From: a virus
Virus record (IMG/VR): IMGVR_UViG_3300006810_012228
Span: 1 to 45,256 of that record
DNA: 45,256 nt
Strand: one strand, 5' to 3'
The position numbers were made by a program, and so were the translations under genes. This document shows positions 3,264 to 24,220 of the stretch, piece by piece. Under the pieces are notes generated by a model. It ran no database searches, was not told where the DNA came from, and saw nothing but the letters and a program-made list of their open reading frames with translations. Within the stretch, counting starts at the first letter, position 1. Every line of letters begins with the position of its first letter.

Positions 3264-4288
3264 AAGATAAAAAATATTTAATAATTGATTCTCGCCCATA
3301 TGGCTTGTTTTCCATCTTTCTACATACTGTAGATAATATTAAGTGGGCAAAAGAAAATGGTTACATTCCAGTTGTCAGATGGGGTCCAGGACGCAGAGAT
3401 CCCAATCGCGGCAGAGAAGGAGCCAACAAGGCATCTCAATTAGGACATCCAAAATATGTAATAGATAAAGAAAATTTTTTAACAGAAGACAGCCCGCCAT
3501 GCCTTAATAACACTTCTGGGCTTAAACATTGTAGAAATTTATATTGGAGCCCAGACGGCTGGAGAGGAACTTACAACACTTGGGAATATTACTTTGAACC
3601 ATTAAACGACACCACCGTTAAGCAAGCGCTCACCGGAGATCATAAAATGTCAGACATCTTTATGGTTGGAGATTATGATTTTGATATATCAAATAAATTT
3701 TTAATTTCGAATGTTCATACTTATGAGCCGTTATTATTATGGAAACTATTGGGAACACCTTTGGAAAAAGAGCATCGTAAAAAAATTAATAAAATAATTT
3801 CTGATAATATTAAAATTAGAAAAGATATTTTAAAAGAAGTCAATTCATTTTACAAAAAATATTTTAATGAAGAGGTACTTGGAGTGCATGTACGAGGAAC
3901 GGATAAAAAATTAGAATATCCACATAGAGCGCTACCCATATCATCATATCTTAAGCAGATTGAAGAATATGTTGCAAGAAAGCCAAACTCAAAAATTTAC
4001 GTCGCATCAGATAATAATGAATCAATCTACAAAATAAGAGAATTAGTTGGAAAAGAAAAGTTGATTGTGTATCCATCTGTAAGGGCAAATAAATATTTTG
4101 CAAAAAATCCAATTTGTCTAACATCTGCAACGGGACCAAAGCACGGAGAAGAATGTTTAAAGGAAATGTTACTTTTATCGAAATGCAATCATATTATTTG
4201 TACGGACTCTAATGTAGCGGCTACATCAATTTATATGAATCCGGAAGCTGAAGTCGTTTATTTAAATAGAATTGAAGGTTTAAGGTGA
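3260..4288 (+). CDS. Fucosyltransferase-like protein (NodZ/FUT8 superfamily)
   Basis: The 342-residue product carries HVRGTDK at residues 210-216. This HxRGxDK motif marks the GT23/GT68-type fucosyltransferase superfamily (NodZ, FUT8, O-FucT), where the arginine contacts the GDP-sugar. Downstream SKIYVASDN and a C-terminal CNHIICTDSNVAATS fit the second part of the same fold, in which a sequential D/N reads the nucleotide sugar. The N-terminal ~200 residues resemble uncharacterised relatives. Expected reaction: transfer of L-fucose or a related 6-deoxyhexose from its GDP form. This agrees with gmd and a mannose-6-phosphate isomerase in the same cassette. It overlaps the upstream stop by 4 bases and the next gene's GTG by 4 bases. 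Confidence 0.75.
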   Translation: MKDKKYLIIDSRPYGLFSIFLHTVDNIKWAKENGYIPVVRWGPGRRDPNRGREGANKASQLGHPKYVIDKENFLTEDSPPCLNNTSGLKHCRNLYWSPDGWRGTYNTWEYYFEPLNDTTVKQALTGDHKMSDIFMVGDYDFDISNKFLISNVHTYEPLLLWKLLGTPLEKEHRKKINKIISDNIKIRKDILKEVNSFYKKYFNEEVLGVHVRGTDKKLEYPHRALPISSYLKQIEEYVARKPNSKIYVASDNNESIYKIRELVGKEKLIVYPSVRANKYFAKNPICLTSATGPKHGEECLKEMLLLSKCNHIICTDSNVAATSIYMNPEAEVVYLNRIEGLR

Positions 4289-5046
4289 ATTTAACAACAA
4301 AAAAGATAAGAAAAAATATTTTAAAGGCATCGTACTTGTCTCAAGCTGGTCACATTCCAAGTGCATTTTCAATTTTAGAGATTCTTTACTGTCTTTATGA
4401 TAAATTTTTGGGCGAGGAAGACGTGTTTGTTTTAAGCAAGGGGCACGGCTGTTTAGCTCTTTATGCCATTTTTTTAGAAATGGGATACATAACCGAAAAA
4501 GAATTTTTATCTTTTTGTAAGTATGATAGTAAGTTAGGAGGACACCCTCACCGCAACAAACATAAAAAAATTTATGCATCATCAGGCTCTTTGGGTCATG
4601 GTTTACCAATTTGTGTTGGCAGTGCTTTAGCTAAAAAAATATTAAACAAAAATAATAAAATATTTTGCTTGGTGGGCGACGGAGAGTGTAATGAGGGAAC
4701 AATTTGGGAATCAGCATTAATAGCAGAAAATTTAAATCTTAGTAATTTAATTTGTATTGTAGACTATAATCAATCCCAAACTAGATCTTTACCAACTAAT
4801 AAAATCGTAAAAAAGTTTAGAGCATTCGGGTGGAAGGTATTAGAAGTAAAGGATTCTCACGATTTGCGAGAGTTAGAATCAGCCTTAACAGAGGCGACAC
4901 GCGCCGGCGATAGACCAACATGTGTTGTTTGTAATACTATAAAAGGTAAAGGAATCTTAGACATGGAAAATAATATGTTTGCTTGGCATCATGGACCACC
5001 GACAGAAGAACAATATAATAAATTTTGCGAGGAATTAGATGCGTAA
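4285..5046 (+). CDS. Transketolase-like, N-terminal (thiamine-diphosphate-binding) subunit
   Basis: The 253-residue protein corresponds to the first third of a transketolase. It shows HIPSAFSILEILYCLYD near the N-terminus, a GHG segment, GGHPHRNKHKKI, then SGSLGHGLP and the ThDP/Mg motif GDGECNEGTIWE (D at ~132) with a downstream N (VDYNQSQT). A full transketolase is ~620-670 residues; here the protein ends after the Pyr/PP boundary and the rest is a separate gene. GTG at 4285 overlaps the upstream TGA. It is coupled to the next gene by an 8-base overlap, and the two products presumably form a heteromer that transfers a two-carbon ketol unit. In a sugar cassette this may feed a ketose or a branched sugar, but the substrate is not deducible. 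Confidence 0.88.
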   Translation: MNLTTKKIRKNILKASYLSQAGHIPSAFSILEILYCLYDKFLGEEDVFVLSKGHGCLALYAIFLEMGYITEKEFLSFCKYDSKLGGHPHRNKHKKIYASSGSLGHGLPICVGSALAKKILNKNNKIFCLVGDGECNEGTIWESALIAENLNLSNLICIVDYNQSQTRSLPTNKIVKKFRAFGWKVLEVKDSHDLRELESALTEATRAGDRPTCVVCNTIKGKGILDMENNMFAWHHGPPTEEQYNKFCEELDA

Positions 5047-5941
5047 AGCTTTTGCAGAAAGTATTTTAGAATTAGCTGAAAAAGATGAAAAGCTAGTTGT
5101 TTTGATCGGTGATATTAGCCACCACTTATTAAAAAAATTTGAAGAAAAATATCCAAATAGATTTTACAATATTGGAATATGCGAACAATCTATGATTGGT
5201 GTAGCGGCAGGATTGGCAATGGAGGGCTATCGTCCGATAGTACATACAATAGCCCCTTTTTGTGTCGAACGCGCTTATGAGCAAATTAAAATAGACCTTT
5301 GCTATCAAAATTTAGATGTTACTATTATTTCAGTAGGATCATCATTCGATTATGCACACTTAGGTTGTACCCATCACTGTTATTCTGATGTTTCTATTTT
5401 GAGACCACTGCCAAACATCGACATTTATGTACCTGGAACATCTGATGAATATAAAAAAATATTTAATGATTCATGGTCAAATGGAAACGCAAAATATTTT
5501 AAGCTTAGTAAAACAGAACATAAACAAAATTTTGAAGTTAGTCCTGGTGAATGTAATGTTCTGAATCTTGGAAATGAAGGAACAATTTTTGTTAATGGGC
5601 ATTTACTGGAAGAAGTACTTAAAATTGAAAATTGTAAAAATTATTCAATTATTTATTGTCCAACAATAGAACCTCTATCACAAAACTGCAAAAAGGTAAT
5701 GTGCGAAGTTATAAAAAGCAATCCAAACATTTTAGTAGTTGAAGAGAATTCTACTTCTGGTGGGTTTGGAGACAAGATTTCCGAAATCGCTTTTGAAGCT
5801 AAATTAAGCATCAAAATGAGAAAATTGGGCATACCAAGGAAATTTTGTTTAAATTATGGAAGCGCCGATGATCATCGTGCGGACTTGGGCTTGATAAGCA
5901 AAAATATGAAAAAAATTTTGAATGAGTTTAAAAATGTATAA
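5039..5941 (+). CDS. Transketolase-like, C-terminal (pyrimidine-binding) subunit
   Basis: The 300-residue partner of the preceding subunit contains the pyrimidine-binding domain, with GDIS at the start and the catalytic glutamate in NIGICEQSMIGVAAGLA (E49), the residue that activates the ThDP aminopyrimidine. It is followed by APFCVERAYEQIK and the transketolase C-terminal domain (LVVEENSTSGGFGD). Split transketolases are common in bacteria and in polysaccharide loci, and a split form need not imply a broken gene: both halves have their own start codons and sensible ends. Together the subunits give ~553 residues. The gene overlaps the next one (ATG at 5922 or 5934 lies before its stop), so the whole block reads as one operon. 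Confidence 0.87.
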   Translation: MRKAFAESILELAEKDEKLVVLIGDISHHLLKKFEEKYPNRFYNIGICEQSMIGVAAGLAMEGYRPIVHTIAPFCVERAYEQIKIDLCYQNLDVTIISVGSSFDYAHLGCTHHCYSDVSILRPLPNIDIYVPGTSDEYKKIFNDSWSNGNAKYFKLSKTEHKQNFEVSPGECNVLNLGNEGTIFVNGHLLEEVLKIENCKNYSIIYCPTIEPLSQNCKKVMCEVIKSNPNILVVEENSTSGGFGDKISEIAFEAKLSIKMRKLGIPRKFCLNYGSADDHRADLGLISKNMKKILNEFKNV

Positions 5942-6992
5942 TTTTAACGTAATACTTGATGATTGCATAAGACTAAAGGAAGAGATTAAACTAGAAAAGT
6001 TTAAAAATTCAACAATATTAATCACTGGCGCAAATGGATTGATAGGCGGCTTTTTAGCAGACTTATTTTGTCATTTAAATGATTTTGAAGATTATAGGAT
6101 ATCTCTTTATTTAACATCCTACAGTAAAAAAAGTAAAGCTTCAAGAATCGAGCATCTAGTAGAGAGAAGCGATGTAAATTATTTTTCCTGGGATTGTTCA
6201 AAACCTTTAAAAGTACAAAAAATTCCTAAAAAAATTGATTATTTATTTTTTTGTTCTGGATATGGACAACCATCCAAATTTTTGAAAAACAATGTAAAAA
6301 CATCACTTATAAATATTGTTGGCATCGAAGCATTGCTTTCTCATATGTCAAAAACGGGCGGCGGAAATGCACTTTTTTTGAGTACAAGTGAGATTTATGG
6401 AGATGTCCCACCTGATAAACTTCCAACTCCAGAAGATTATGGCGGCTACTATAATCTACAAAATAATCGTGAAGCTTACAAAATGTCAAAAAAAATGGGC
6501 GAAGTAATTTGCAAAGAGTATAATTGCTTTGATAATATAAATGTAAAGATCGCAAGAGTTGCCCTGACATATGGTCCAGGCTCTTTACTAAATGATCAGC
6601 GGGTAATGCAGGAATTTATTTTTAAAGCAAATTTTAATAAAAAAATTAAAATGTTAGATGAGGGTAATTCAATAAGAAATTATCTGTATATAACAGACTC
6701 GGTAAAAATTTTATTAAATATTATAAAAGACGGAAAACACTTGGTTTATAATGTTGGTGGTACCGAGGAACCAATTTCTATTTACGATTTGGCATTGAAA
6801 ATTGGTCAAATCTTCAAAGTTCCTGTAATTAAAGGACAAATTACAAATAAAGAAAATAAGTCTGCCCCTAAAAATGTTAGACTAAAAATGGACAGGTACA
6901 AAAATGAATTTTCTGACAACAACTCTTTTATTAATCTTAACGAAGGGATAAAAAATGTGATAAAATGGTATAAATTTCAGGAAGTAAAATAA
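5934..6992 (+). CDS. NAD(P)-dependent sugar epimerase/dehydratase (extended SDR)
   Basis: A nucleotide-sugar short-chain dehydrogenase of ~352 residues. The Rossmann motif GANGLIGG stands near residue 32-39, the catalytic serine/threonine region is STSEIYGD, and the YxxxK pair is YKMSK (Y and K at ~182 and ~186 from the ATG at 5934). The C-terminal part has RNYLYITDSVK and VYNVGG, as in UDP-glucose epimerase and UDP-glucuronate decarboxylase relatives. ATG at 5922 (12 bases upstream) is an equally possible start; 5934 is preferred because it overlaps the preceding stop in the compact style of the cassette. It could act on the GMD product or on a separate UDP-sugar; the exact reaction is open. 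Confidence 0.82.
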   Translation: MYNFNVILDDCIRLKEEIKLEKFKNSTILITGANGLIGGFLADLFCHLNDFEDYRISLYLTSYSKKSKASRIEHLVERSDVNYFSWDCSKPLKVQKIPKKIDYLFFCSGYGQPSKFLKNNVKTSLINIVGIEALLSHMSKTGGGNALFLSTSEIYGDVPPDKLPTPEDYGGYYNLQNNREAYKMSKKMGEVICKEYNCFDNINVKIARVALTYGPGSLLNDQRVMQEFIFKANFNKKIKMLDEGNSIRNYLYITDSVKILLNIIKDGKHLVYNVGGTEEPISIYDLALKIGQIFKVPVIKGQITNKENKSAPKNVRLKMDRYKNEFSDNNSFINLNEGIKNVIKWYKFQEVK

Positions 6993-7918
6993 TGACTCAA
7001 AAAATATGTATAGAAGACTTGGAAAACATTTTCAATGAAAAAGCAAGCGCGCTTATTAGAGAAAAATTTAAGAATTTAGACTTTTCTTATCAACAATTAG
7101 ATAGAAAAGAAAGAGACTCACTATTCTTGACAATAATAAAAACCCTAAAAGATGATAGTGTTAAAAAATCTGGAAACCATAGGATTAATGATTGGGTTGC
7201 AGGCTGGGGACAAAATCGCGATGAATTTTTAAAAACTAATAAATATGAGTCACTAATCCCAAAATACTTTGGTAAATTTCCATATGTTCGATGGAAACAA
7301 GACTTTATCAAACCAACAAACAAGCAGTTTGAATATAATATGGTAAAAATTCTTCAATATTGGATTTTCGAAAAATACTTGTCCGACGTTTCTAATATCT
7401 ACGAGTTTGGTTGCGGCACTGGTCATAATCTTTTCAGGGCATCAGAAGTTAACCCATCGGCATCAATTACTGGTTTGGATTGGGCAACATCTTCTCAAGA
7501 AATATTTAAATATATAAATCAAACGTTTAATAAAAACTTTAATTCTCATCGGTTTGATTTTTTTAATATTGATAAAGATTATAAAATTTTGAAAAATAGT
7601 GGAGTTTTTACTTTTGCAGCTTTAGAGCAAGTTGGGAACTGTCACATGGAGTTTTTAGAATATCTTATAAAACAATCTCCACAAATTTGTGTTCACATAG
7701 AGCCTATTGCAGAAATGTTGAACCCAGATGAGTCTTTTATAGATTTTTTGAGTGTAGAATACTTTAAGAAAAGAAATTATCTAGATGGACTGAATAAATC
7801 ATTAAAAACTTTAGAAAGTAATAATAAAATAGAAATAGTTCATAAACAAAGAAGTCAGATAGGCAGTTGTTTTGTGGATGGCTACTCAATTATAGTCTGG
7901 AGACCTAAAAATGCCTAA
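6992..7918 (+). CDS. Class I SAM-dependent methyltransferase
   Basis: The 308-residue product has the SAM-binding motif I YEFGCGTGHNLF at residues ~137-148, followed by an acidic post-motif (GLDWATSS). Residues 1-130 are an N-terminal extension with NDWVAGWGQNRDEF and a YVRWKQDF segment, seen in methyltransferases of polysaccharide loci. The C-terminal half includes CVHIEPIAEM and GYSIIVWRPK. It probably methylates a sugar of the glycan made by this cassette, but a protein or lipid target cannot be excluded. ATG starts exactly at the last base of the previous stop (TAATG) and the end overlaps the next start. Confidence 0.75.
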   Translation: MTQKICIEDLENIFNEKASALIREKFKNLDFSYQQLDRKERDSLFLTIIKTLKDDSVKKSGNHRINDWVAGWGQNRDEFLKTNKYESLIPKYFGKFPYVRWKQDFIKPTNKQFEYNMVKILQYWIFEKYLSDVSNIYEFGCGTGHNLFRASEVNPSASITGLDWATSSQEIFKYINQTFNKNFNSHRFDFFNIDKDYKILKNSGVFTFAALEQVGNCHMEFLEYLIKQSPQICVHIEPIAEMLNPDESFIDFLSVEYFKKRNYLDGLNKSLKTLESNNKIEIVHKQRSQIGSCFVDGYSIIVWRPKNA

Positions 7919-8342
7919 AAATATTTATTCAAAAAAAGATAAATCATTGCTTTTAATGACAATCAATAAATTTTCTGATATAAACAAACAACGAACAGAT
8001 TTATGTCCGGAAGAGCAATTTTTACAAATTTCTTCTAAAAAGATTCAAAAAGGCATAAAATTTACCCCACATAAGCATAATCCAATTAATAGAAAAACCA
8101 CAATAACGCAGGAAGCCTGGATTGTTTTACAAGGAAAAATTAGAGCAACATTCTACGACATAGATGATCGTATTATAGAAGAAGCTGATTTAAGTCCTGG
8201 CGATTGTGCAATAGTTTACTATGCTGGTCATGGTTTTGAAGTTCTAGAGGACGATACTATTATTTATGAATTAAAAAGTGGTCCTTACTTTGGCGTTGAG
8301 AAAGATAAAACGCCCATTATCAATAGCGAGAAAAACAAATGA
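7911..8342 (+). CDS. Cupin-fold protein of the polysaccharide-locus type
   Basis: The 143-residue single-domain cupin has the usual two motifs: HKHNPINRKT with a downstream Glu/Gln-rich strand (TQEAWIVLQGKIRATF), and PGDCAIVYYAGHGFEVLED. Histidines and the glutamate in these motifs would bind a metal. Small cupins in surface-sugar loci act as epimerases, isomerases (WxcM/FdtA-like) or dehydratases on keto-sugar nucleotides. The closing YFGVEKDKTPI is typical of the group but does not fix the reaction. It lies between the methyltransferase and gmd with overlaps of 8 and 4 bases, so it is part of the same operon. Confidence 0.65.
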   Translation: MPKNIYSKKDKSLLLMTINKFSDINKQRTDLCPEEQFLQISSKKIQKGIKFTPHKHNPINRKTTITQEAWIVLQGKIRATFYDIDDRIIEEADLSPGDCAIVYYAGHGFEVLEDDTIIYELKSGPYFGVEKDKTPIINSEKNK

Positions 8343-9319
8343 AAAATAGAAAAAAAAGAGCATTAATTACTGGAATTGGAGGTCAAGACGGAAGTTATTT
8401 ATCGGAATTTCTTTTAGAAAATGATTATGAAGTTCATGGTGTTATTCGACGGCACTCAGTAGCCGAGAATCAAGATAGCAGAATTTTTCACGTTAATGAT
8501 CAAATTAAAAGCTATTATGGCGATTTATTAGATTATCCCTCTCTTCACAGAATAATTTCTGAGGTTCAGCCAGATGAAATTTACAATTTAGCTGCAATGA
8601 GTCATGTTAGGATTAGTTTTGATATTCCATCCTTTACAATTCAAACAAACGCTTTAGGTGTTTTAAACTTGTTAGAAATTTATAAAAATGTGGTACCAAA
8701 AGCAAAATTTTATCAAGCGAGTTCATCAGAGATGTTTGGCAATAGTGTTGATGAGGATGGTGTACAAAGATTAACAACTCCAATGAACCCAGTTAGTCCT
8801 TATGGCTGTGCCAAATTGCTAGCATATAACTTAGTAAGGCACTATAGAAATGCTTATGGGCTACATGCTTGTAATGGAATTTTGTTTAATCACGAATCCC
8901 CGCGCAGGGGCTCCAACTTTGTTACCAACAAGGTTGTAAAGTCTGCCGTAGAGATTTATCAGGGAAAGAGAGATAAATTAGAATTAGGTAATCTAGATTC
9001 TTATCGTGATTGGGGTCATTCCAAAGACTATGTTCGTGCAATGCATATGATCTTAAATCATGACACTCCAGAAGAGTTTATTGTCTCAACAGGACAAACA
9101 CACTCTGTTAGAGACTTGTGTGAGATTGTTTTTAGCAAACTCGGAATGGATTATAAAGATTATGTCGTTCAGAATCCAAAGTATATGCGACCTGAAGAAC
9201 TTAAATACCTTAAGGGAGATAGCTCAAAAGCTCGCGAGGTACTTGGTTGGACACCAGAGTACACTTTTGAGACAATGTTGGAAGAAATGATAAACAAGTG
9301 GTTTAATAAAATTAATTAA
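8339..9319 (+). CDS. gmd: GDP-mannose 4,6-dehydratase
   Basis: The 326-residue enzyme converts GDP-D-mannose to GDP-4-keto-6-deoxy-D-mannose, the precursor of GDP-fucose, GDP-rhamnose, GDP-perosamine and colitose. Diagnostic features are TGIGGQDGSYL at residues 11-21 (the GQDG variant of the Rossmann loop is specific to GMD), RRHSVAENQDSRI, YNLAAMSHV, SSSEMFG, SPYGCAK with Y155 and K159, and NHESPRRG. Length is slightly below the usual 340-375, with the shortening at the C-terminus. It overlaps the cupin stop by 4 bases. Base composition rises towards typical phage values in its second half. The enzyme fits the fucosyltransferase-like gene and the mannose-6-phosphate isomerase; no clear GDP-fucose synthase was found in the window. 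Confidence 0.93.
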   Translation: MKNRKKRALITGIGGQDGSYLSEFLLENDYEVHGVIRRHSVAENQDSRIFHVNDQIKSYYGDLLDYPSLHRIISEVQPDEIYNLAAMSHVRISFDIPSFTIQTNALGVLNLLEIYKNVVPKAKFYQASSSEMFGNSVDEDGVQRLTTPMNPVSPYGCAKLLAYNLVRHYRNAYGLHACNGILFNHESPRRGSNFVTNKVVKSAVEIYQGKRDKLELGNLDSYRDWGHSKDYVRAMHMILNHDTPEEFIVSTGQTHSVRDLCEIVFSKLGMDYKDYVVQNPKYMRPEELKYLKGDSSKAREVLGWTPEYTFETMLEEMINKWFNKIN

Positions 9320-9344: not shown

Positions 9345-9530
9345 ATGAAATTATCAGATCAAGCATTAGGAGCCGTAATGATGGCTCTACAAAAATCATT
9401 ACTAGAACAAACAGACATTGTACCAGTTCTTAAGGGTTTTGACTTTGTTTTAGATGGCGAAGAGCTATCAGTGACTAATCCACCAACCTTTAAGGTTGAA
9501 GAGCCGCAAACAGAGTTTGTTTATGAATAA
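9345..9530 (+). CDS. Small conserved-looking protein of unknown function
   Basis: A 61-residue protein with an amphipathic N-terminal helix (QALGAVMMALQKSLLEQ) and a short acidic C-terminal tail (FVLDGEELSV, then FKVEEPQ). It is preceded by a full AAGGAG site. The pattern of a leading helix with LKGF(D)F and NPP is, as I recall, that of small proteins found beside structural or sigma genes in marine T4-like phages; the function is unknown. It sits between gmd and the mannose-6-phosphate isomerase, and its stop overlaps the start of the latter, so it is not a sugar enzyme but belongs to the same transcript. I assign no function. Confidence 0.65.
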   Translation: MKLSDQALGAVMMALQKSLLEQTDIVPVLKGFDFVLDGEELSVTNPPTFKVEEPQTEFVYE

Positions 9531-9879
9531 GATAATTAAAAAGCCGTGGGGACATGAAGAAATCATAGTTCATACTGACAAATATGTTATGAAAAAACTG
9601 TGGATCAATGAAGGGCAACGACTTTCAAGGCAGTTTCATGTTAAGAAGGATGAGACTGTGTTTGTTTCAAAGGGAACATTGCTTTTAGATCTATCAACAA
9701 ATGACTTAGAAAGCAACATTATGAGACTTGAAGAGGGGCAGTCATGGAGAATTGTTCCAAATACCATCCACAGATTCACAGCCCCTGATGATCAGCCAGT
9801 AGAGCTTTTTGAAGTTTCTACTCCAGAATTAGATGATGTTGTAAGACTATCTGATGATTACGGGAGATCAGGTGCCTAA
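9523..9879 (+). CDS. Cupin-type mannose-6-phosphate isomerase-like protein
   Basis: From the ATG at 9523 the product has 118 residues. The preceding in-frame TTG at 9496 would add nine residues that mirror the upstream gene and is rejected. The sequence begins with KKPWGHEE, the RPWG-type opening of type II phosphomannose isomerase / mannose-1-phosphate guanylyltransferase C-terminal domains, and has QFHVKKDETVFVSKG and TIHRFTAP (metal-ligand positions), ending DDVVRLSDDYGR, a classical PMI tail. The stand-alone domain interconverts mannose-6-phosphate and fructose-6-phosphate, supplying GDP-mannose synthesis ahead of gmd. Its end overlaps the zinc-ribbon gene. Confidence 0.8.
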   Translation: MNKIIKKPWGHEEIIVHTDKYVMKKLWINEGQRLSRQFHVKKDETVFVSKGTLLLDLSTNDLESNIMRLEEGQSWRIVPNTIHRFTAPDDQPVELFEVSTPELDDVVRLSDDYGRSGA

Positions 9880-10117: not shown

Positions 10118-10401
10118 TCGTTACACTAACAATAGCTACAATTACCCTCTCAATCGCTCTAGGATTGGCTGTGTGGTACATTAGAGGACTATTGATGGTA
10201 CTACACCAAATGACAGCAGATGTCCAACAGATGGAAGATAAGATGGTTGAATTCTCAAAGCACCTAAACAACGTTTATGAGATGGAAATGTTCTACGGGG
10301 ATGAAACTCTGGGGCAGCTTATCCGCCACTCTAAAGAAGTGGTTGACAGCATTGGCGAGTTTACAAATTTATTTGAGGTAGATAATGACACAGCCAACTA
10401 A
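10114..10401 (+). CDS. Small membrane-anchored protein of unknown function
   Basis: The 95-residue product starts with a hydrophobic segment (residues ~3-30, VTLTIATITLSIALGLAVWY then IRGLLMVL), consistent with a single N-terminal membrane anchor. The rest is soluble and partly coiled-coil-like (QQMEDKMVEFSKHLNNVYEM), ending in an acidic tail. The ATG overlaps the TGA of the zinc-ribbon gene. Similar small anchored proteins with a short helical stalk lie near the late sigma gene in marine T4-like phages, but none has a known role. No lysis-protein signature such as a second membrane segment or dual start is visible. Confidence 0.6.
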   Translation: MIVTLTIATITLSIALGLAVWYIRGLLMVLHQMTADVQQMEDKMVEFSKHLNNVYEMEMFYGDETLGQLIRHSKEVVDSIGEFTNLFEVDNDTAN

Positions 10402-11092
10402 GAAGAAGAGGCGTAAGAGAACTAAAAGGCTCTATTTTACAAAAGTTCACGAAGAAGCCATCATTCAATACACCCTCACAAGAGACCGCTTCGAAAAAGA
10501 CCGACTTTATGGAACTCTCATTCAGCCAGCGTTTAGTGAACTGGTAGACAAGATTATCTACACCTACAAGTTTAATAGCCTTCCAAACATAGAAGTTTTA
10601 GCCGACGAATGTAAGATTTGGCTAACCACAATCTTAGACAAGTTCGACCCCGAGAAGGGGCACAAAGCCTTCTCTTATTTTAGTGTGATCACAAAGAATT
10701 GGTTTATTCAGAAAGTCAAGAAGAACACTAAAAGGTTACAAAGAGAGGTGAGGTGCGATGATGTTTACCACGAAGTGGAAAATGAGCAGTTTGTAACCAA
10801 AAATCACTATGAAGACGACAGAGCCCAAAGGGAGTTTTGGGCTGCTCTGACCAGCGAAATTGATGGCTGGAAGCAGATGCCGCTAAAGGAAAACGAACAA
10901 AAAACCATTTTAGCCATCGAAGATTTGATGAACAGCATCGAAGACATTGAAATTTTTAATAAAAAAGCTATTTATCTATACCTACGAGAGATTAGTGGTT
11001 TAAATACTAAGCAACTTGTAGCGAGCTTGAGCAACATTAAGAAAAGGTATCGAGAGTTCAAGCATGATTGGGTAAATGGTGAGCCGAGATGA
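10385..11092 (+). CDS. 55: Late-transcription sigma factor, T4 gp55-like
   Basis: The 235-residue protein matches the gp55-like sigma family of T4-related phages, which directs host RNA polymerase to late promoters with the sliding clamp. It has a basic N-terminus (KKKRRKRTKR), then a sigma region-2-like part: VHEEAIIQY, the LADECKIWL helix, and FDPEKGHKAFSYFSVITKNWFIQKVKK (residues ~87-115), the phage form of the core-binding and -10 element helix. Overlap with the preceding gene is 17 bases. It lies between the glycan cassette and the tail genes, which would be its late targets. I saw no unambiguous TATAAATA-type late promoter in the few intergenic gaps. Confidence 0.75.
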   Translation: MTQPTKKKRRKRTKRLYFTKVHEEAIIQYTLTRDRFEKDRLYGTLIQPAFSELVDKIIYTYKFNSLPNIEVLADECKIWLTTILDKFDPEKGHKAFSYFSVITKNWFIQKVKKNTKRLQREVRCDDVYHEVENEQFVTKNHYEDDRAQREFWAALTSEIDGWKQMPLKENEQKTILAIEDLMNSIEDIEIFNKKAIYLYLREISGLNTKQLVASLSNIKKRYREFKHDWVNGEPR

Positions 11093-11394
11093 TTAATCCA
11101 GATGAGTTGGCAGAGCAGGCAATAAAAAACATCAAAGAAGATAGAAATCAGGCCGATTACCTTGTAACTCAAATTTTATCAGACATCCAGGCAGGCAAAA
11201 CAAACCATCAAAGCGCTGGGCCGGTCTTATCTAAGCACTTAGAAACAATGCAGCGAGCCAATGAACAATTAGTCAAGCTCGCTGCCCTATTCAAAAAAAC
11301 AGAAACCAATCATTTTACTGGGTTTTCCGATTCCGAAAGAGATAAGTTGTTTGAAGAAATCAATAGAAAAGAAGAAGAGGAACCTAGTGAGTAA
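11089..11394 (+). CDS. Hypothetical acidic helical protein
   Basis: A 101-residue protein, mostly predicted helix (DELAEQAIKNIKEDRNQAD, KHLETMQRANEQLVKLAALF), with a highly acidic C-terminus (NRKEEEEPSE). No motif I recognise. Start ATG overlaps the TGA of the sigma factor by four bases and its stop overlaps the next ATG by one base, so it is co-translated with both. The composition suits a small binding or assembly protein; in T4-like phages small genes at this place are uncharacterised. No function is assigned. Confidence 0.6.
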   Translation: MINPDELAEQAIKNIKEDRNQADYLVTQILSDIQAGKTNHQSAGPVLSKHLETMQRANEQLVKLAALFKKTETNHFTGFSDSERDKLFEEINRKEEEEPSE

Positions 11395-13697
11395 TGTCTG
11401 CAAAAACTAATTCCGCTCTAAATAAAAAGACAAGAGTCGATAAAGCGGCTTTCCTTAAAGATGTAGCTAACCAAGTTGACGCCAATATCAATGATGTTCT
11501 TATTGAGTTGGCTAGAGAGCAGCTAAAAACTAATGTTAATGCCGGTAAAGACACTTTCTTGGCTGTGGTCACAAAAGTTGTAGAGGGGCACTTATCTGAT
11601 CCTTTTCTAAACGTTGGCTATGAAGTAGATAGGACAGACGGAACAACCAATGAGCCACAAAAAGACCATAAAATAGTTCTTTTGCACATCCCTTCTTTAC
11701 ACACATTTTACACTGAGTTTGAAGAACAAAGTAGGGAAAACAAAGAAGCCATCCTCAGCACTGACATTTATAAGATAGCTTGTGTAACAAATCAAAATTT
11801 AAAACCACAAGAGATTGTTAGTGTTAGATTTGAAAACATAAAAAATTTAACTGGTCCAACAATAACTAAGTTAAAAGGAGATCAAAGAAAGACTCTAATT
11901 GGCGATGTTAAAAAGTTTTTAAAAGCTAGTGAGGTAATGAAAAACCAAAATGCTTGCAAGTTACAAGCGATTGATGACGCCCAAGGCTATGCCATTTCAG
12001 CAAGAACCTTTTTAAATCCAAGTAACCCTACTGTTGGTTATGATGGCTTTTATAGGGCAATGACAGACACAGCAAAAAAAGATGAAGTTTTAAAACAAAT
12101 TGTAAGAAATAAAACATCAACCGAGCTAAGCACACTGGGACTAAGTGCCAATCTTTCTTCAAAGGAGGCTTTGGCAGAATTGAATAGTAATCCAGACTAT
12201 AATTTTTCTATTGAAATACAAACATCAACAACTGTTTCTCTTTATCTTAATCAAGTTGGAGCCTCAACTTATGGGCAAAATTTAATTACACTAAGCGCTT
12301 CAACAGACTTGGACAATCCGCTGACAAGAGAAGTAAGAATTATTATTGATTCAAAGAATTCAAAACTTAGATCTTTTATTGCAGAATTTTTAAAAGGTGT
12401 TGTAGTTAATGAGCTTAACTATGGTTGGAGCACTGAAAAAACTGAAGACACTAAACAGTTTTACAAAGCGGACATTTTTGGAAAGCCGGGAATTGATGAC
12501 AGGTTTGCAAATAGCAAAAAAGGCGACACGGCTCTTGCAATAGAATATTCAACAAAAATGCTCAATAAATCAAGAATTTCTGTTGGAGAGCCAACTAAGA
12601 TTGCAGCCAATGCCCCATTAAAAAGTCAAAAGACGCCGGCTACAAACACACAACAAGCCACAAATCAGCAAACACCGACAGCACAACCAAAGCAGGACAT
12701 TCCAAATTGTGAAGACGCCACCGCGCTAAATGATAACATTTACATAAATGTGGAGAAACAAACAAACTCAACTTCATTTTTTGAAGATAATAAGAAGTTT
12801 AAAAAGGCTCTTGATCTGCTCGCCGCCGACAAGGCACCCGCCACTTTAAAGAATTGGAACTTTCCCCTCGGTCGAGGCGCCGCCAAAGCAACCCGAATAG
12901 ACGTTATTAATAACTTTAAAGCAACAACGACGCCAAAGAGAGGGCTATTCCCCGGCTTTTCATACACAAAAAACCAAGAAGTTATTTCTGGATTTTCTGA
13001 AAGTTTTAAACAAAGTAAGGACGCGCTTAACCGACGCGAAAGAAGAAAAAAATTAAAAAACGCAAAAGAAACAGGGACAAATTTTAACAAAATTCAAGAA
13101 AACATTACGCAATTGGTTCGTTTTGTCAATGAGCTTGCAAAATTGGTGGCAACAAATGAGGGAATCCCGCTAGAAAGGGTCTTTGTTATTCCAATTAGCA
13201 CGTTTAGGCAATTTAAAAAAACTGGCTCAAAGGACGGACAAGACGATAATAGCCGTCACTATTTTGGTAGGGCAATTGATTTTACAATCTACATAAATCC
13301 AGATAGCAAAATTGATCTAGAATCTAAGGAGATGCCACTAAAAGGAACTTATGAAATTCCAAATAACATTGTCTACCTTTACGTTCTTAAATTGTTAAAA
13401 TTTCAAAAAGACAAATTTGGAACTTGTGGGCTAGCTCTTTTAAGGCGTGGCACTAAAAGAAAATCTGGCTATGTTCATTATGAATATATGAGAGAAACTA
13501 GCTCTGAAAATGTAGGGCTTCTTCTAAATAGAAGGTGGGTTTCTAAGCCATTAAACAAAAAAGACAAAAGTGTCTATGGCAAAGCCTTTGGTCAGCCAGA
13601 TACAAGCAAGGATGAGATTATTAAAAGCGAAACAGTGAGAGAGATAAAAGCGAAATTAGGCTTTTTACCAGAAAAAATAGAATTTTTATTAGGATAG
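11394..13697 (+). CDS. Baseplate hub / tail protein with C-terminal M15-type peptidase domain
   Basis: The 767-residue product has an N-terminal region without recognised motifs (~1-410), a Q/T/A-rich linker (~411-440) and a C-terminal domain with an M15 peptidase pattern: SRHYFGRAIDF at 620-630, matching SxHxxGxAxD with ligands H622 and D629, and a third ligand H695 in GYVHYEY. M15 enzymes (VanX, VanY, Ply500) cut D-Ala or peptide bonds of peptidoglycan. Its place at the head of the baseplate genes, next to a needle-type protein, suggests a tail-borne wall hydrolase, comparable to the lysozyme domain of T4 gp5. The usual glutamate three residues before the last histidine is not seen (a serine/glycine lies there), so activity is uncertain. 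A GC-rich patch lies at ~12810-12960. Confidence 0.65.
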   Translation: MSAKTNSALNKKTRVDKAAFLKDVANQVDANINDVLIELAREQLKTNVNAGKDTFLAVVTKVVEGHLSDPFLNVGYEVDRTDGTTNEPQKDHKIVLLHIPSLHTFYTEFEEQSRENKEAILSTDIYKIACVTNQNLKPQEIVSVRFENIKNLTGPTITKLKGDQRKTLIGDVKKFLKASEVMKNQNACKLQAIDDAQGYAISARTFLNPSNPTVGYDGFYRAMTDTAKKDEVLKQIVRNKTSTELSTLGLSANLSSKEALAELNSNPDYNFSIEIQTSTTVSLYLNQVGASTYGQNLITLSASTDLDNPLTREVRIIIDSKNSKLRSFIAEFLKGVVVNELNYGWSTEKTEDTKQFYKADIFGKPGIDDRFANSKKGDTALAIEYSTKMLNKSRISVGEPTKIAANAPLKSQKTPATNTQQATNQQTPTAQPKQDIPNCEDATALNDNIYINVEKQTNSTSFFEDNKKFKKALDLLAADKAPATLKNWNFPLGRGAAKATRIDVINNFKATTTPKRGLFPGFSYTKNQEVISGFSESFKQSKDALNRRERRKKLKNAKETGTNFNKIQENITQLVRFVNELAKLVATNEGIPLERVFVIPISTFRQFKKTGSKDGQDDNSRHYFGRAIDFTIYINPDSKIDLESKEMPLKGTYEIPNNIVYLYVLKLLKFQKDKFGTCGLALLRRGTKRKSGYVHYEYMRETSSENVGLLLNRRWVSKPLNKKDKSVYGKAFGQPDTSKDEIIKSETVREIKAKLGFLPEKIEFLLG

Positions 13698-13706
13698 TTA
13701 TTTATA

Positions 13707-14615
13707 ATGTCAACAACTTCTTCAAATCCAAATAGTGAACCAAGCTCTAAGCAAACAGATGCCACTAGAGCTAGATTAAAACAAGCAAAAAAACAAAAGG
13801 ATGGCGCAGCAGCTAACGAAAACTCGTATCCTAAACCCAAGCTTGTGCTTGATGGAGACTTTGAATTAGTTGGAAAACATCCAAATAAAGCAGCTTACAT
13901 AATCATGGGCAACAATAAAAAGTACGCCAAACCAGAATTGAACATAACTGTGGGTGTTGGTGGACCATTTAAAGCAGAGGTTGACCCAAAAACTAAAAAG
14001 CCCGTCACATATCGTTATCCAAGCCAGCTTGATGCAGCTTCAATTGTAATGTCCGAAGCAACAGACGACACTGGAATCGTCTCTTTAAAAGGTAGTCCAA
14101 ACTCTAGAGCAGCCATTAGAGCCACAGCGGACACAGTTAAAATTTATGGTAGAGAGATAGTTGAAATTGGAGCAGGAGGCTCTCAGTATATACACGGCAC
14201 CGGCACAAAAAACAAAGCTGGTCGCCCAGGGCAAGTTCATATTGTCGCTGGCAATAGAAATGAGCCGGGGCAATTTGAACTACAACCTATGGTAAAAGGC
14301 GATAATTTAAAAGAATATTTGGATCAAATTTGCGAGAGCATTTCAAATGTAAATTCAAATCAACAAAAAATAATTCAGTTAGTTATTAAAATGCAGGCAA
14401 TTTTTACTGCCATGGGGACTGCGTTAGCTGCAATTCCTCCAACTACTGGTGTTGGCAGCACCATCTTGTCATTAATAGCACCGGAGATTCCAAATGCAGT
14501 TATGGCACTAACAAACAATTTATCTTCAGGGGTGAATGTTGATATGAAAAAATTCAATTTTACCAAGCCCTATTCTGCCAAACCAATTTTAAGCAAGTAC
14601 AACAAGGTTAACTAA
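13707..14615 (+). CDS. Virion structural protein, baseplate hub/needle type
   Basis: The 302-residue product has a low-complexity, lysine-rich N-terminus, then an extended middle with repeated short beta-like units (SKAAIRATADTVKI-like: SRAAIRATADTVKIYGRE) and the tail QLQPMV-type motif, here FELQPMVKGDNLKEYL, followed by a helical C-terminus. The pair of ADTVKIYGRE and LQPxVKGDNL marks a family of phage structural proteins linked to the baseplate/tail tip. It follows the M15 gene with a 9-base gap and precedes the next gene by one base. A role as a needle or hub partner of the M15 protein is inferred from its place. No catalytic motif is seen. Confidence 0.6.
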   Translation: MSTTSSNPNSEPSSKQTDATRARLKQAKKQKDGAAANENSYPKPKLVLDGDFELVGKHPNKAAYIIMGNNKKYAKPELNITVGVGGPFKAEVDPKTKKPVTYRYPSQLDAASIVMSEATDDTGIVSLKGSPNSRAAIRATADTVKIYGREIVEIGAGGSQYIHGTGTKNKAGRPGQVHIVAGNRNEPGQFELQPMVKGDNLKEYLDQICESISNVNSNQQKIIQLVIKMQAIFTAMGTALAAIPPTTGVGSTILSLIAPEIPNAVMALTNNLSSGVNVDMKKFNFTKPYSAKPILSKYNKVN

Positions 14616-18723: not shown

Positions 18724-20573
18724 TGCTTGGTTTTGATGCTTACAATAAAACAATGTTTTCGGCTATAGTTCAACAAAGAATTGAATTATTTTTAGCAAAG
18801 AGAATAGTCATTAATTTACCCTTAGTTATAAAAGCAAAAGTTGATAATGACACAATCTTTCTAAGCGAATTCACAAAAACGCTCTATCCTATTTTTAAAA
18901 ATCAACTTAAGGAAAAAAATCTTTATTTTCATTACGCACTGGCTTCAATTTTTATTGAAGACCCAGATTACAATTTTATTATCTCAAATGATCAGGACAC
19001 AATTCAGAAAGCTGAAACAACACTAGAAGAATATTTTAATAAAATTGCAAAAGACGTAATTTTGCAACAAAATTCTAGCTTAGTCAGCCCAGAAACAGAA
19101 AAAAAGAATTTGTTTTCTTTTCTTTTATCAACAACAGAAAATCATAGATTTATTCCCAGTTTTACCCCAGAGGGTGAAAAACAAATTAGAAAGTGGACCG
19201 AGGTCGGCGCTGACCTTTTACAAATTAAGGAATCGAAAAGAATCCCTCCTGTTATCGCAAAAGCTTTGGGAGATAAAGCTTATCAACAATCTTTAGACGA
19301 CGCGCTACGTTTTAGCCAGCCAATAAGTAAAATAAATTCGCCTTTTTACATAGAGTATTTTTATAGACCGGCAGACTATGCCAAGGTGCGTAACGATCTT
19401 GCCCTTCAGGCGATTGGTGTTTATTCGAAGGAAGCCAAAGAAGCCGAACTTTCCACTCTTGCAACTTTGAAGTATGGTGGCTATCTTGATGCAAGATTAA
19501 GCGACTATAAAAACAAGCTAAATCGAGGTGTCAGATTGATGTTCAACATTGGTGCAACGATTCAACAAGACATCGAAGTTGATGCGAATACCGCTTCTAC
19601 TGTATATTATCATCCAATTAGACCAACCAAATTTACACCATTGACTGGCTTCACTGGCTTTGATAAAACTTTTGAAGAAGACGCAGAAAGCCTAGCTGTC
19701 CCGTTTCTAGCGAAATACGACATCATTAGCGGAAGCAATAATGATGGAAGCTTTCTTAATGGGATTGTTATCAAAATGGCAGCAGTTGAATCTTCCAATA
19801 GAAATAAACTTAAGGCAGATAAAGCAAACAGACCAGATGCTGATGAGAAACTTAATCAAAATAATATCTTTTCATTAAAAAATGATTTATACCTCACTTG
19901 TCCCAGCACAGAAAACAAAAAAACAGGTAAGGGAAAGTCTGTTTATGATGTTAACAAAAATTACTACTCAGCGTACAAAGACCTCTATAAAAATGTAAAT
20001 CTAGAGGGGATAAGAGCCAATAAAAATTTAATTTCGTTTGAAAAAGAAATTATAACTTATTTTAAAAATCAAGACGGAGAAGGGGCCACCGAAGAATGGA
20101 TTAATTGCTATTTTCCAATAATAATTGCAGAATATGTTGATGAGGACACCGAGATAGGCGCTTTTGAAGTTAAACTCCCCGCCGCCACCGGACAAATGCC
20201 AGATTTGTTAATAGAATCTAAAAACTTTGAACCACTTTATAAAAAAATGTTAGAAGAAGAGATGGGTCAAATAAAATTCTTAAATGAATATATCAATAAA
20301 CAGGAAACAGCAAAAAAACTTTTTGGAGAAGATGTGGTTAATATTCAAAACATTGTTGAAGCAAACGAAAAAAACATTAAAATATTTGAATCATTTCAAA
20401 AAGAAAACGATGCTCAAGAGGCGCTGTTTAACTCGCTACCCGAAGTTGTACAAGATATTTTGTTTCCAGGCGGGTTTAAAGCACCAAAGCCCCAGTTTGT
20501 AAAAGTTGGACAATTTGCAAATGACCTTGATAAAACTTTGTTCAACCTAATTACTTTTGACGAGGAAAAATAA
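18723..20573 (+). CDS. Virion structural protein (baseplate region), unknown
   Basis: A 616-residue protein without recognisable motifs; it is acidic/basic mixed with a mostly globular pattern and a helical C-terminus rich in K and E (QETAKKLFGEDVVN...). It sits directly upstream of the gp25-like gene, whose ATG overlaps its TAA by one base. In T4-like phages, the genes next to gene 25 encode baseplate wedge components such as gp53 or gp48, but length and sequence here do not allow identification. The function is assigned by neighbourhood only. Confidence 0.45.
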   Translation: MLGFDAYNKTMFSAIVQQRIELFLAKRIVINLPLVIKAKVDNDTIFLSEFTKTLYPIFKNQLKEKNLYFHYALASIFIEDPDYNFIISNDQDTIQKAETTLEEYFNKIAKDVILQQNSSLVSPETEKKNLFSFLLSTTENHRFIPSFTPEGEKQIRKWTEVGADLLQIKESKRIPPVIAKALGDKAYQQSLDDALRFSQPISKINSPFYIEYFYRPADYAKVRNDLALQAIGVYSKEAKEAELSTLATLKYGGYLDARLSDYKNKLNRGVRLMFNIGATIQQDIEVDANTASTVYYHPIRPTKFTPLTGFTGFDKTFEEDAESLAVPFLAKYDIISGSNNDGSFLNGIVIKMAAVESSNRNKLKADKANRPDADEKLNQNNIFSLKNDLYLTCPSTENKKTGKGKSVYDVNKNYYSAYKDLYKNVNLEGIRANKNLISFEKEIITYFKNQDGEGATEEWINCYFPIIIAEYVDEDTEIGAFEVKLPAATGQMPDLLIESKNFEPLYKKMLEEEMGQIKFLNEYINKQETAKKLFGEDVVNIQNIVEANEKNIKIFESFQKENDAQEALFNSLPEVVQDILFPGGFKAPKPQFVKVGQFANDLDKTLFNLITFDEEK

Positions 20574-20962
20574 TGGCAACAGGGATTTCAGTTAAGCTTC
20601 CATTACGAGTAACCAAAAATGATGGCCCTTATGGGCTAACTAAAGATTTGGTTAGCACCGTAAAGCAAAACTTTAAAAACTTAGTTTTAACAACTCCCGG
20701 CGAGAGAGTTATGGATGTAAACTTTGGTGTTGGAATTTACGGAATGCTTTTTGAAAATTACAATTCTGATGTGCAGCTAAAAATTAGAGAAAGAATAGTT
20801 TCACAGACAGCAGAATATATGCCATTTATCACTATTCGATCAATAAATTTTAATGACACCGAGATAGATAGTAACAAGATTCTTGTTGCAGTAAACTATT
20901 ATGTTTCACCCCTAAATTTTGAAGATGAGATAGTTTTAAATCTTAGTGGAGGGACGAATTAA
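20573..20962 (+). CDS. 25: Baseplate wedge protein, gp25/GPW family
   Basis: The 129-residue product has the length of T4 gp25 (132 residues) and its signature: LVLTTPGERVMDVNFGVGI followed by YGMLFEN, the TxPGExxMxPxFG pattern of the GPW/gp25 lysozyme-like fold, which is structural and not a lytic enzyme. In T4, gp25 clips gp6 dimers into the baseplate ring. The next gene is the gp6-like protein, in the T4-like order. ATG overlaps the previous stop (TAATG) and its own stop overlaps the next ATG. Confidence 0.9.
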   Translation: MATGISVKLPLRVTKNDGPYGLTKDLVSTVKQNFKNLVLTTPGERVMDVNFGVGIYGMLFENYNSDVQLKIRERIVSQTAEYMPFITIRSINFNDTEIDSNKILVAVNYYVSPLNFEDEIVLNLSGGTN

Positions 20963-22751
20963 TGCCAACAGTTAAGCCACCAATTTCATATACAAGTAGA
21001 GACTTTACTTCTATTAAAGATGATTTAATAAACTACGCCAAGATTTACTACCCAAACACCTACAAAGATTTTAACGAGGCTTCTTTCGGCGCAATGATGA
21101 TAGACATGATTGCTTATGTTGGTGACATTTTATCTTTTATGTTGATTATCAAACAAATGAAACACTAATAGACACAGCAATTGAAGAAGGCAGCATTGTT
21201 AAAATTGCAAAACAGCTTGGCTACAAGTTTAACAGCACACCAGTTTCTACTGGACAAGCAGCCTTCTATGTTTCAGTCCCGGCAAATAGTAGCAACTCTG
21301 GACCAGACACAGACTTGATCCCAATCTTAAAAGCTGGCACTCTTGTTTCTTCTGATTCGGGGGCAGTTTACACACTTACAACAGATGTAGATTTTGCAAA
21401 TGCCAACACAGAAATTAAGGTCGCAACCGTTAACGACAGCGGAACTCCACAAACCTATGCCTTCAAGGCTTATGGAACTATTGTTTCTGGTGAGGAATCC
21501 CAAGAACAAATAGATGTTGGAAGCTTTGAAAGATTCTTAAAAATTAAGCTAGGAGAAAAGAACATTAGTGACATAGTGAGTGTTACTGATTCTGACGGTA
21601 ACGAATACTATGAAGTGGATTACTTATCACAAAACACAGTGTTTAGGGCAATAAGAAACATTAGTGAGAACGATGAAACAGTTCCCTACATTCTGAGAAG
21701 CATGTATGTCCCGCGCAGATTTGTAACAGAGCACACGCTAGACAATGACACCTTCCTTCAGTTTGGTTTCGGCTCAGAGACAGAGATTGAGAATAAGTCT
21801 TTCCCTGACCCAACTGCTGCAACTTTGCAGCTAAATGGTAGAAACTTTTTCTCTGATAGTAGCTTTGACCCGTCCCAAATCTTAAAAACTGAAAAGTTAG
21901 GAATAGTGCCAGTCAACACAACTTTGACCATTTCTTATAGAAAGAACACTATTGAAGACGTTAATGCCGCCGTTGGCGCCGTTAATACTGTTGTAAATTC
22001 AAAAATAGAATTTAGAAAAAGCTCTACCGCAAATTCAAATGCGCTACAACAGATTTCAGCCTTTGAAGTTGAAAATGAGGAACCTATTGTTGGCAGCGTT
22101 TCTCTTCCAACAGCGGAGGAAATTAGAATTCGTGCAATTGACAACTATGCAGCCCAAAACAGAGCAGTAACTAAACAAGATTACATCAGCTTGATTTATA
22201 GAATGCCAGCTAATTTTGGTTCTATAAAAAGGGCAAACATAGTTCAAGACACTAATAGCTCAAAAAGAAATTTGAATTTGTATGTTATTTCTGAGAATGC
22301 AGATGGTGATTTAATTACAGCTTCAACAACTTTAAAACAAAATTTGAAAAACTGGTTAAACGAATACAAAATGATTAACGACACCGTTGACATTTTAGAT
22401 GCTAAAATTGTAAACATAGGGATTAATTTTGAGATTATTGGAGAGCTAGAAAAAGACTTTACTCTTGTTTTAAATGATTGCATCGATGCTTTAAAGCAAA
22501 AATATCAAACTAAATTTAACTTAGGCGAACCATTTTACATTTCAGACGTTTTTAGAACTTTAAATGATGTTGATGGTGTAGTTGACACATCTAGTGTTCA
22601 AATTGTTAGAAAATCAGGCACTGGTTATAGTTCATATCAATTTAGTGTAGATCAGAACACCTCTAGAGACGGAAGACTAATTAGAGTACCTGAAAATGTT
22701 ATTTTAGAAATTAAGAACATGGACGCCGACATTGTTGGGGTGATTAGATAA
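20962..22751 (+). CDS. 6: Baseplate wedge protein, gp6/baseplate-J-like (interrupted by a frameshift)
   Basis: In the sequence as given, frame 1 codes 68 residues and stops shortly after SFM (21168), while the continuation YVDYQTNETLIDTAI starts in the -1 frame at 21138. Joined, the product has ~596 residues, close to T4 gp6 (660). The N-terminal YTSRDFTSIKDDLINYAK and FNEASFGAMMIDMIAY are baseplate-J/gp6 hallmarks. The central and C-terminal parts have EIRIRAIDNYAAQNRAVTKQDY, also typical of this family. It follows gp25 as in T4. The break lies in a T-run (21135-21138), four T where five would keep the frame. The second half has no translation start needed and no stop from 21138 to 22751. 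Essential wedge proteins are rarely lost, so error or recoding is the simplest reading. Confidence 0.85.
21135..21138 (+). other. Frameshift site in the gp6-like gene (T4 run)
   Basis: Codons are TCT TTT ATG in frame 1. One extra T would read TCT TTT TAT GTT GAT and rejoin the conserved downstream frame. The upstream frame then ends in TAA at 21168. Confidence 0.8.
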
Positions 22752-24220
22752 TGGCGATTAAGAGATTCTTTGCTACTAAAGACAACACAATAACCAATGC
22801 CTTCAAGGATGGCTTAACAACTCGCGGAACCGGCTCAAACATGGGCGCTGCTGACATAATGGAAGTATTCAGCATCTATGGTCAGACTACTTCTACATCA
22901 AGTGAGCTTTCAAGAGCTTTGGTAGAATTTGACATTGCCGCATTGTCTGCATCAAGGGACAACGGTAACATTCCAGCTTCAGGATCAGTTGATTTTTATC
23001 TTCGCATGTATGATGCCGAGCATGTTGAATCAACCCCAAGAGACTTTACACTTACGATTGCGGCAGTTTCGCAATCTTGGGCTGAAGGAACCGGCCTAGA
23101 TACAGTAAACTATACTGACCTTGGCGCATCAAATTGGGTAAAAGCGGATTCATCAACCAACTGGACGGCCCAAGGTGGTGATTTTTTAACTGGTTCGGGC
23201 GACAGTCTTATGTTTACATCGAAAACTTTTGATGCAGGGACGGAAGACCTATCGGTAGATGTCACTTCAATCGTTGAAGAGTGGCTAATTGGAACCACTG
23301 GCAGTTATGGCTTTGGCGTATTCTTAACCTCATCACAAGAAGAAGCAACTCAGTCATACTATACGAAGAAGTTTTTTGCCAGGGGAAGTGAGTATTTTCA
23401 TCGTAGGCCAGTCCTAGAGGCTCGCTGGAACGACGTTGTTGCTGATGATAGCTCTAACTTCTACCTAAGCAGTTCAAGGGCTCCAGTAGCCGATAACCTC
23501 AACACAATCTACATCTACAACTATGTGAGAGGTCAATTAGTCAACATCCCCAGTATCGGCACGGGGAACATCTACCTCAGCGTTTACTCAGGCTCAACAG
23601 GCCCCACAGGGGCCGCTCTAAGCCTCCCTGTTGGCGGTGGAGTGGCTTCGGCAGGTGATACTGCGGTTACGGGCGGCTATGTCTCTACAGGCGTATACAG
23701 CGCGAGTTTTGCTTATACGTCGTCTTCCATAACTTCAATTTATCCCGTTTGGCACAACAACAGTGGAACGGAGTACTTTAGTGGCTCTGCCATTACTGTA
23801 AAATCCCAAGAAGATGCTTCAACTTACCCAATTAAAGATTGGGTTATTAACATCACCAATCTTAAAACAACTTATTCAACAGACGAGGTTGCTAGATTTA
23901 GGCTTTATGTCCGTCCAAAAAATTGGAATCCCAACCTTTACACTGTTGCTCAAACTCAAATTGAAACAACTCCAATTGATAAAGCTTACTACAAATTGAA
24001 TAGAGTTGTTGATAATTTTGAAGTTATTTCTTATGGAACAGGAAGCGGAAATGAAGCTTACACCCAACTATCTTATGATGCCTCTGGTAATTATTTTGAT
24101 TTAGATATGAGTATGCTACAAAGTGGGTACAATTATCAGTTAACATTCCTATTTAATCTAGTAGGTGATTACCAGGAACAGAGAGCTAAATTTAAGTTTA
24201 GGGTAAGTGATGGCGATTAA
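22751..24220 (+). CDS. Virion structural protein, DNRLRE-like N-terminal domain
   Basis: The 489-residue protein begins with a DNRLRE-like domain (residues ~1-215: FFATKDNTITNAF, ALVEFDI, SQSWAEG, EEWLIG, GFGVFL), a beta-rich module found in surface and tail-fibre proteins. The pattern VEFDI ... W.EG ... EW is characteristic. The C-terminal ~260 residues include beta-rich parts and RFRLYVRPKNWNPN. It lies between the gp6-like wedge and the giant structural protein, so it is most likely a tail-tip or fibre component. ATG overlaps the previous TAA. A GC-rich patch (39 G/C of 60 in 23581-23640) lies in the part between the two halves, unlike the AT-rich neighbours. Confidence 0.6.
   Translation: MAIKRFFATKDNTITNAFKDGLTTRGTGSNMGAADIMEVFSIYGQTTSTSSELSRALVEFDIAALSASRDNGNIPASGSVDFYLRMYDAEHVESTPRDFTLTIAAVSQSWAEGTGLDTVNYTDLGASNWVKADSSTNWTAQGGDFLTGSGDSLMFTSKTFDAGTEDLSVDVTSIVEEWLIGTTGSYGFGVFLTSSQEEATQSYYTKKFFARGSEYFHRRPVLEARWNDVVADDSSNFYLSSSRAPVADNLNTIYIYNYVRGQLVNIPSIGTGNIYLSVYSGSTGPTGAALSLPVGGGVASAGDTAVTGGYVSTGVYSASFAYTSSSITSIYPVWHNNSGTEYFSGSAITVKSQEDASTYPIKDWVINITNLKTTYSTDEVARFRLYVRPKNWNPNLYTVAQTQIETTPIDKAYYKLNRVVDNFEVISYGTGSGNEAYTQLSYDASGNYFDLDMSMLQSGYNYQLTFLFNLVGDYQEQRAKFKFRVSDGD

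Follow-up and report, generated by a model that had tools for sequence, protein, structure and literature searches.

A predicted MepK-like zinc peptidase domain, without the VanX/VanY glutamate, in a candidate tail-tip protein of a T4-like marine phage

Introduction

To infect a cell, a phage tail has to get through the cell wall. A sequence-only reading of a viral stretch of 45,256 nucleotides (IMG/VR record IMGVR_UViG_3300006810_012228; hereafter the window) proposed that its first baseplate gene carries an M15-type peptidase domain, placing a possible peptidoglycan cutter at the tail tip, where T4 uses the lysozyme domain of gp5. The glutamate expected three residues before the last histidine was not visible, and the domain was therefore thought either to use another residue or to be a binding relic. 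The locus thus raises the question of whether this domain is a wall-cutting enzyme and, if so, how it would work without that glutamate. Sequence comparisons and structural models suggest that the gene product, P0001, is probably a tail-tip peptidoglycan endopeptidase of a T4-like marine phage, in the role of the gp5 lysozyme.

The gene, its motif and its neighbours

The P0001 gene follows a gp55-like sigma factor gene and lies ahead of the baseplate wedge genes gp25 and gp6 (Table 1), so that calling it the first baseplate gene was fair. Its motif, SRHYFGRAIDF (S620, H622, G625, A627, D629), has the form SxHxxGxAxD, which 12 of 200,000 shuffled versions of P0001 also contained, and the third histidine, H695, lies within KSGYVHYEYM with G692 rather than Glu three residues before it; the three proposed ligands are exactly where the sequence-only reading had put them.

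Judging from its place and size, the 101-aa gene beside the sigma factor gene is perhaps gp33-like. The 302-aa protein encoded downstream of P0001 gave no family match, and a PDB profile search returned nothing credible for it; it looks beta-rich and is possibly a spike, in which case the base and needle of gp5 would here be split into two genes. No PAAR gene was found in the window, and Pfam recognised no other peptidoglycan hydrolase in ten neighbouring window proteins.

Further features of the window were recorded. The gp6 gene (20962-22751), a single 596-aa ORF in relatives, is interrupted here: near 21138 the reading frame changes, so that the first 59-87 residues are in frame 1 and the rest in frame 3. 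The break may reflect misassembly or be a genuine lesion. Downstream of gp6 lies a 2933-aa ORF (24207-33008) with no Pfam match, in whose place relatives carry an ORF of similar size. A long series of genes for glycosyltransferases and nucleotide-sugar epimerases fills 318-9319, immediately upstream of the tail genes, and a cysteine-dioxygenase-like (cupin) gene lies at 9496-9879 (phrog_7851, E 1.4e-18).

Table 1. Coordinates of P0001, its parts and its landmark neighbours in the window.
Feature	Residues	Position	Strand	Basis or remark
gp55-like late sigma factor, which opens the conserved gene order		10385..11092	+	phrog_234, E 1.7e-6
101-aa gene, conserved beside the sigma factor gene		11089..11394	+	locus comparison
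P0001, candidate hub/spike gene		11394..13697	+	intact ORF, 767 aa
Predicted N-terminal helix and OB-fold barrel	32-161	11487..11876	+	model, profile matches
Predicted M15/LAS-like domain	556-767	13059..13694	+	AlphaFold2 model, structural matches
Arg605	605	13206..13208	+	aligned with Arg of the YRS/FRT motif in MepK and VanY (profile alignments); 8/9 sequences
SRHYFGRAID: S620 and putative zinc ligands H622, D629	620-629	13251..13280	+	named residues invariant, 9/9 sequences
GYVHYE: G692 at the VanX/VanY Glu place, invariant Y693, putative third zinc ligand H695, invariant acid E697 at +2	692-697	13467..13484	+
Trp715, invariant	715	13536..13538	+	a conserved Trp (ARHW, VRxW) likewise closes MepK-type domains, beyond the His strand
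302-aa neighbour, in all relatives		13707..14615	+	alignment
gp25 baseplate wedge subunit		20573..20962	+	phrog_261, E 4.1e-19

Conservation of the putative zinc site

Searched as a single sequence, P0001 found no match in viral contigs, phage records (tblastn), the PDB (phmmer), PHROGs or NCBIfam, and its Pfam match to PF13539 remained below the cut-off (13.8 or 17.2 bits against 25). The cut-off of Peptidase_M15_2 (PF05951) was not reached either, P0001 being unlisted and contig L032 scoring 14.9 bits against 27. A weak Pfam match to Sipho_tail, which overlies the zinc motif and is below its cut-off, was dropped. A profile of the domain used in hmmsearch against the PDB retrieved only an L-Ala-D-Glu endopeptidase (E 0.86, aligned on SxHxxGxAxD), and when the aligned domain sequences were searched one by one against PHROGs, the only matches were weak ones to endolysins (best E 0.011).

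Relatives gathered via the neighbouring baseplate gene gp25, an alignment of gp6 and the P0001 family itself included full-length homologues of P0001 in ten other viral contigs (20-50% identity). Conservation was assessed across nine distinct sequences, that of the window included, whose domains share 25-63% identity. Fifteen of the 212 domain positions are invariant, including S620, H622, D629, F630, Y693, H695, E697 and W715; the chance that all three proposed zinc ligands fall among them is 2.9e-4, or 1.7e-5 with S620 added, in a count that ignores the generally higher conservation of residues such as His, Gly and Trp. The position three before the last histidine is occupied by G, G, P, S, S, G, M, N and H. 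The putative zinc triad is thus under strong constraint, and the VanX/VanY-type glutamate is absent family-wide. Among the other motif residues, G625 is replaced by Asn in four of the nine sequences, and R605 by Glu in one.

Predicted fold

Structure prediction, which had been proposed as a check, returned an M15/LAS-like fold. Modelled alone with AlphaFold2 (residues 556-767, nine sequences), the domain reached a pLDDT of 81.4 and a pTM of 0.82, and its first 31 VIA-align matches among solved structures were all M15/hedgehog (LAS) proteins, the Zn DD-peptidase of Streptomyces albus (1lbu) leading with Z 6.9, followed by thirty hedgehog structures (Z 5.0-6.0), with the first unrelated chain at Z 3.3. 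MepA and Ply500 were also among the matches (Z 3.0-3.3). The full-length model, poor outside the domains (mean pLDDT 58), likewise ranks 1lbu first (Z 7.9). All of these Z-scores are below 8 and thus only middling, and Foldseek with the domain model gave no significant match (E 0.3 or worse), so the case for the fold rests on the clean top run of LAS proteins together with the motif. P0001 therefore has the H-x6-D motif and third histidine of the LAS/M15 group, and the LAS fold as a prediction.

The N-terminal part of P0001 resembles a spike-type OB fold. Model residues 52-161, of moderate to low pLDDT, match OB folds including 8kea_D, from the baseplate of cyanophage A-1(L) (Z 5.8, 2.5 A over 65 residues), and the VgrG chain of 6u9g (Z 5.1). 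Generic OB proteins score equally, and the models thus support an OB fold and no particular relative. Profile comparison found no direct homology between the N-terminus of the P0001 family and cyanophage gp5, and the Gp5_OB model (PF06714) had no match in the window, nor did it match the control sequences.

The missing glutamate and the likeness to MepK

The domain profile of the P0001 family matched MepK/M15_2 at P 5.6e-5 and the VanY domains of sister phages at P 2.1e-4, whereas M23, amidase and muramidase controls gave 0.16-0.72. These matches span only 35-52 columns, which take in the first motif and the Arg ahead of it and leave the last histidine outside the alignment; the likeness at that histidine is therefore based on comparing the sequences directly and on the strand order of the model. 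The direct comparison covered E. coli MepK and 30 further M15_2 sequences. Around the last histidine of these 31 sequences, position -3 is mostly G or N with no Glu consensus, -2 is F in 26 and +2 is Asp in all. The MepK-type pattern is accordingly [G/N/P]-F-[V/I]-H-x-D, against Y-x-H-x-E in the P0001 family, with an acid at +2 throughout both (31/31 and 9/9). In the MG1655 record mepK is b0926, and YcbK is the older name of the same gene.

These comparisons bear on the glutamate that the sequence-only reading had called usual. It is indeed absent here, but it is usual only in the VanX/VanY branch: Glu three residues before the histidine is the VanX pattern, whereas HxH characterises the S. 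albus enzyme and both HxH and ExxH are missing from YcbK (PMC3927764), and MepK is nonetheless an active LD-endopeptidase of E. coli (PMC11586513, PMC12729407). The missing glutamate is thus weak evidence for a relic, and we do not regard it as a sign of decay.

By its active-site pattern the P0001 domain is nearest to MepK (M15_2), as a divergent variant rather than a member. Of the VanY/VanX type it lacks a Glu or Asp at -3 and scores under the Pfam cut-offs (PF02557, PF13539); of the S. albus type it lacks HxH, since Y693 and not His stands two before the last histidine in all nine sequences; and of the MepK type it has the aromatic-x-H-x-acid strand without ExxH or HxH, with a Pfam score below cut-off and no Asp at +2. 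Each subfamily thus has at least one feature that the domain does not share, and we place it in no named M15 subfamily.

The main alternative is that of a pseudo-enzyme, in which the zinc site is kept for structure or for peptidoglycan binding at the tail tip and cutting has been lost. The absence of both ExxH and HxH from all nine sequences and the variation of G625 and R605 are compatible with such a loss, and the hedgehogs, among the closest fold matches, are a widely debated example of a LAS zinc site whose peptidase activity is in doubt (PMC6027127). However, MepK is active without the same residues (PMC3927764, PMC11586513), S620, H622, D629, Y693, H695 and E697 are all invariant down to 25% identity, and sister phages fill the same gene position with hydrolases. 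We therefore consider a pseudo-enzyme unlikely, while still the most serious competitor of an active peptidase.

Exchange of C-termini in sister phages

Gp6-anchored loci long enough to show it keep one gene order: the sigma factor (about 235 aa), a gene of about 100 aa, the position held by P0001 (hereafter the slot), a gene of about 310 aa, one or two large genes, gp25 and gp6. Slot proteins range from 171 to 807 aa. Their C-termini exceed the Pfam cut-offs for Peptidase_M23 in seven loci (L051, L058, L063, L065, L089, L096, L098), Phage_lysozyme (GH24) in one (L060), N-acetylmuramidase in three (L074, L090, L100), Amidase_2 in two (L082, L088; L104 is just under) and VanY in three (L012, L056, L093). 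The VanY domain of L012 scores 62.9 bits, has an intact ExxH in ERWHWEY and matches solved VanY-type carboxypeptidases at E 4e-11. In about ten sister loci (e.g. L035, L041, L045) the slot protein is short and without an enzyme domain, and an enzyme in the slot is thus not indispensable. Slot proteins with weak M15_3 or M15_4 matches occur at L094:1-1056 and L070:1-891; that of L094 carries HIHIE, an HxH pattern, and the slot may consequently hold three different LAS active-site types.

The N-terminus of the P0001 family matches the N-termini of other slot proteins at profile P 1e-4 to 2e-4 (controls 0.14-0.62), and those of two other slot groups match each other at P 2e-6; contigs L058, L082, L088 and L093 begin within the slot gene, so that their N-termini are only partly seen. 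As judged by these sequence comparisons, the slot gene of T4-like marine contigs keeps a related N-terminus and swaps its C-terminus among M23, GH24, N-acetylmuramidase, Amidase_2, VanY, MepK-like and none. A partial literature search found no published description of domain swapping in this slot. We regard the swap series as the strongest evidence for function, since every other recognised slot domain cuts peptidoglycan.

The series also bears on the possibility that P0001 is an M15-like peptidase acting on another substrate, for example in the processing of tail proteins during assembly, or on a host surface protein or S-layer. The sequence does not reveal the substrate, which leaves room for such a role, but the company of peptidoglycan cutters in the slot and the action on peptidoglycan of MepK, the characterised M15_2 relative, make it improbable. 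That the motif arose by chance within an unrelated fold is scarcely credible given the invariant triad, the predicted fold and the profile matches with clean controls, even though the single-sequence family scores are under cut-off.

Proposed function

Conservation, predicted fold, synteny and the undisputed peptidoglycan hydrolases in the slot of sister phages thus all support the proposal that the tail tip bears an M15-type zinc site, and a peptidoglycan endopeptidase is the reading that we prefer. P0001 would be a hub or central-spike protein with an OB base, a long middle region and a C-terminal LAS/M15 zinc peptidase-like domain. By analogy with the trimers of gp5 and A-1(L), the OB part at the tail tip may bear three copies of the cutter, which sheath contraction would drive through the outer membrane. 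Zinc, held by H622, D629 and H695, would then serve to open peptide stems or cross-links of the peptidoglycan, allowing the tube to pass. E697, which aligns with the invariant Asp of MepK and should share a strand face with H695, is the strongest candidate for activating water or shaping the site, as a base or an essential second-shell residue, replacing the VanX/VanY glutamate or the first histidine of HxH; Y693 and R605 perhaps assist it. Whereas the motif, its conservation, the predicted fold, the place in the gene order and the exchange with known hydrolases are computational findings, presence in the virion, zinc binding, catalysis, the bond cut and the role of E697 are what we infer.

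A MepK-like form bears on a wider question about LAS enzymes, namely which residue activates water where neither ExxH nor HxH exists, and nine natural variants with an invariant acid at +2 make it testable. Likewise, a single syntenic gene in which the base is retained while the cutter is exchanged offers a natural series for asking how the chemistry of the host wall selects the enzyme.

Comparison with known systems

Like T4 gp5, P0001 appears to be a tail-tip protein that joins an OB-like base to a wall-cutting domain. The gp5 enzyme is a GH24 lysozyme, whereas the P0001 domain is M15-like with no GH24 match, and no beta-helix was recognised in the same chain. In cyanophage A-1(L), a peptidase domain of the baseplate hub lyses host cells, and the central spike has an OB fold after an N-terminal helix (PMC10966104), as is also predicted for P0001; the A-1(L) enzymes are in the hub protein, while P0001 would carry its enzyme domain on the OB protein. 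MepK (YcbK) shares with P0001 the SxHxxGxAxDF motif, the preceding conserved Arg, a G-x-G strand, an aromatic-V-H-x-acid strand, the later Trp and the lack of ExxH and HxH. P0001 differs in having E rather than D at +2, Y rather than F at -2 and a sub-cut-off Pfam score, and its domain is part of a phage tail protein, whereas MepK is an exported cell enzyme.

The VanY domains of the sister phages (L012, L056, L093) have the gene slot and the zinc motif in common with P0001, and in L012 also HxEY from the last histidine on, but they keep the catalytic Glu at -3 and are only remotely related in sequence. VanY domains above the Pfam cut-off also occur in cyanophages ACG-2014d (L024:6089-9145) and S-SSM4 (L025:1823-4747), in a protein of 974-1018 aa adjoining gp26. 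That of ACG-2014d is annotated only as hypothetical, and gp5 of this phage shows an OB domain and no lysozyme match. The VanY-like domains of ACG-2014d, S-SSM4 and Campylobacter phage Los1, located in the hub or late tail region, are annotated variously as hypothetical, endolysin or putative peptidase. The Fletchervirus 'putative peptidase' LOS1_00140 resembles P0001 as an M15/VanY domain within a large protein, in a late region shared with a Gp5_OB tail gene; unlike P0001, it is separate from the OB gene and has a canonical ExxH (KEPWH). Peptidase domains in baseplate hubs are thus already known; new here are a MepK-like, ExxH-less domain predicted to be fused to an OB protein and the diversity of enzymes that replace one another within a single syntenic gene.
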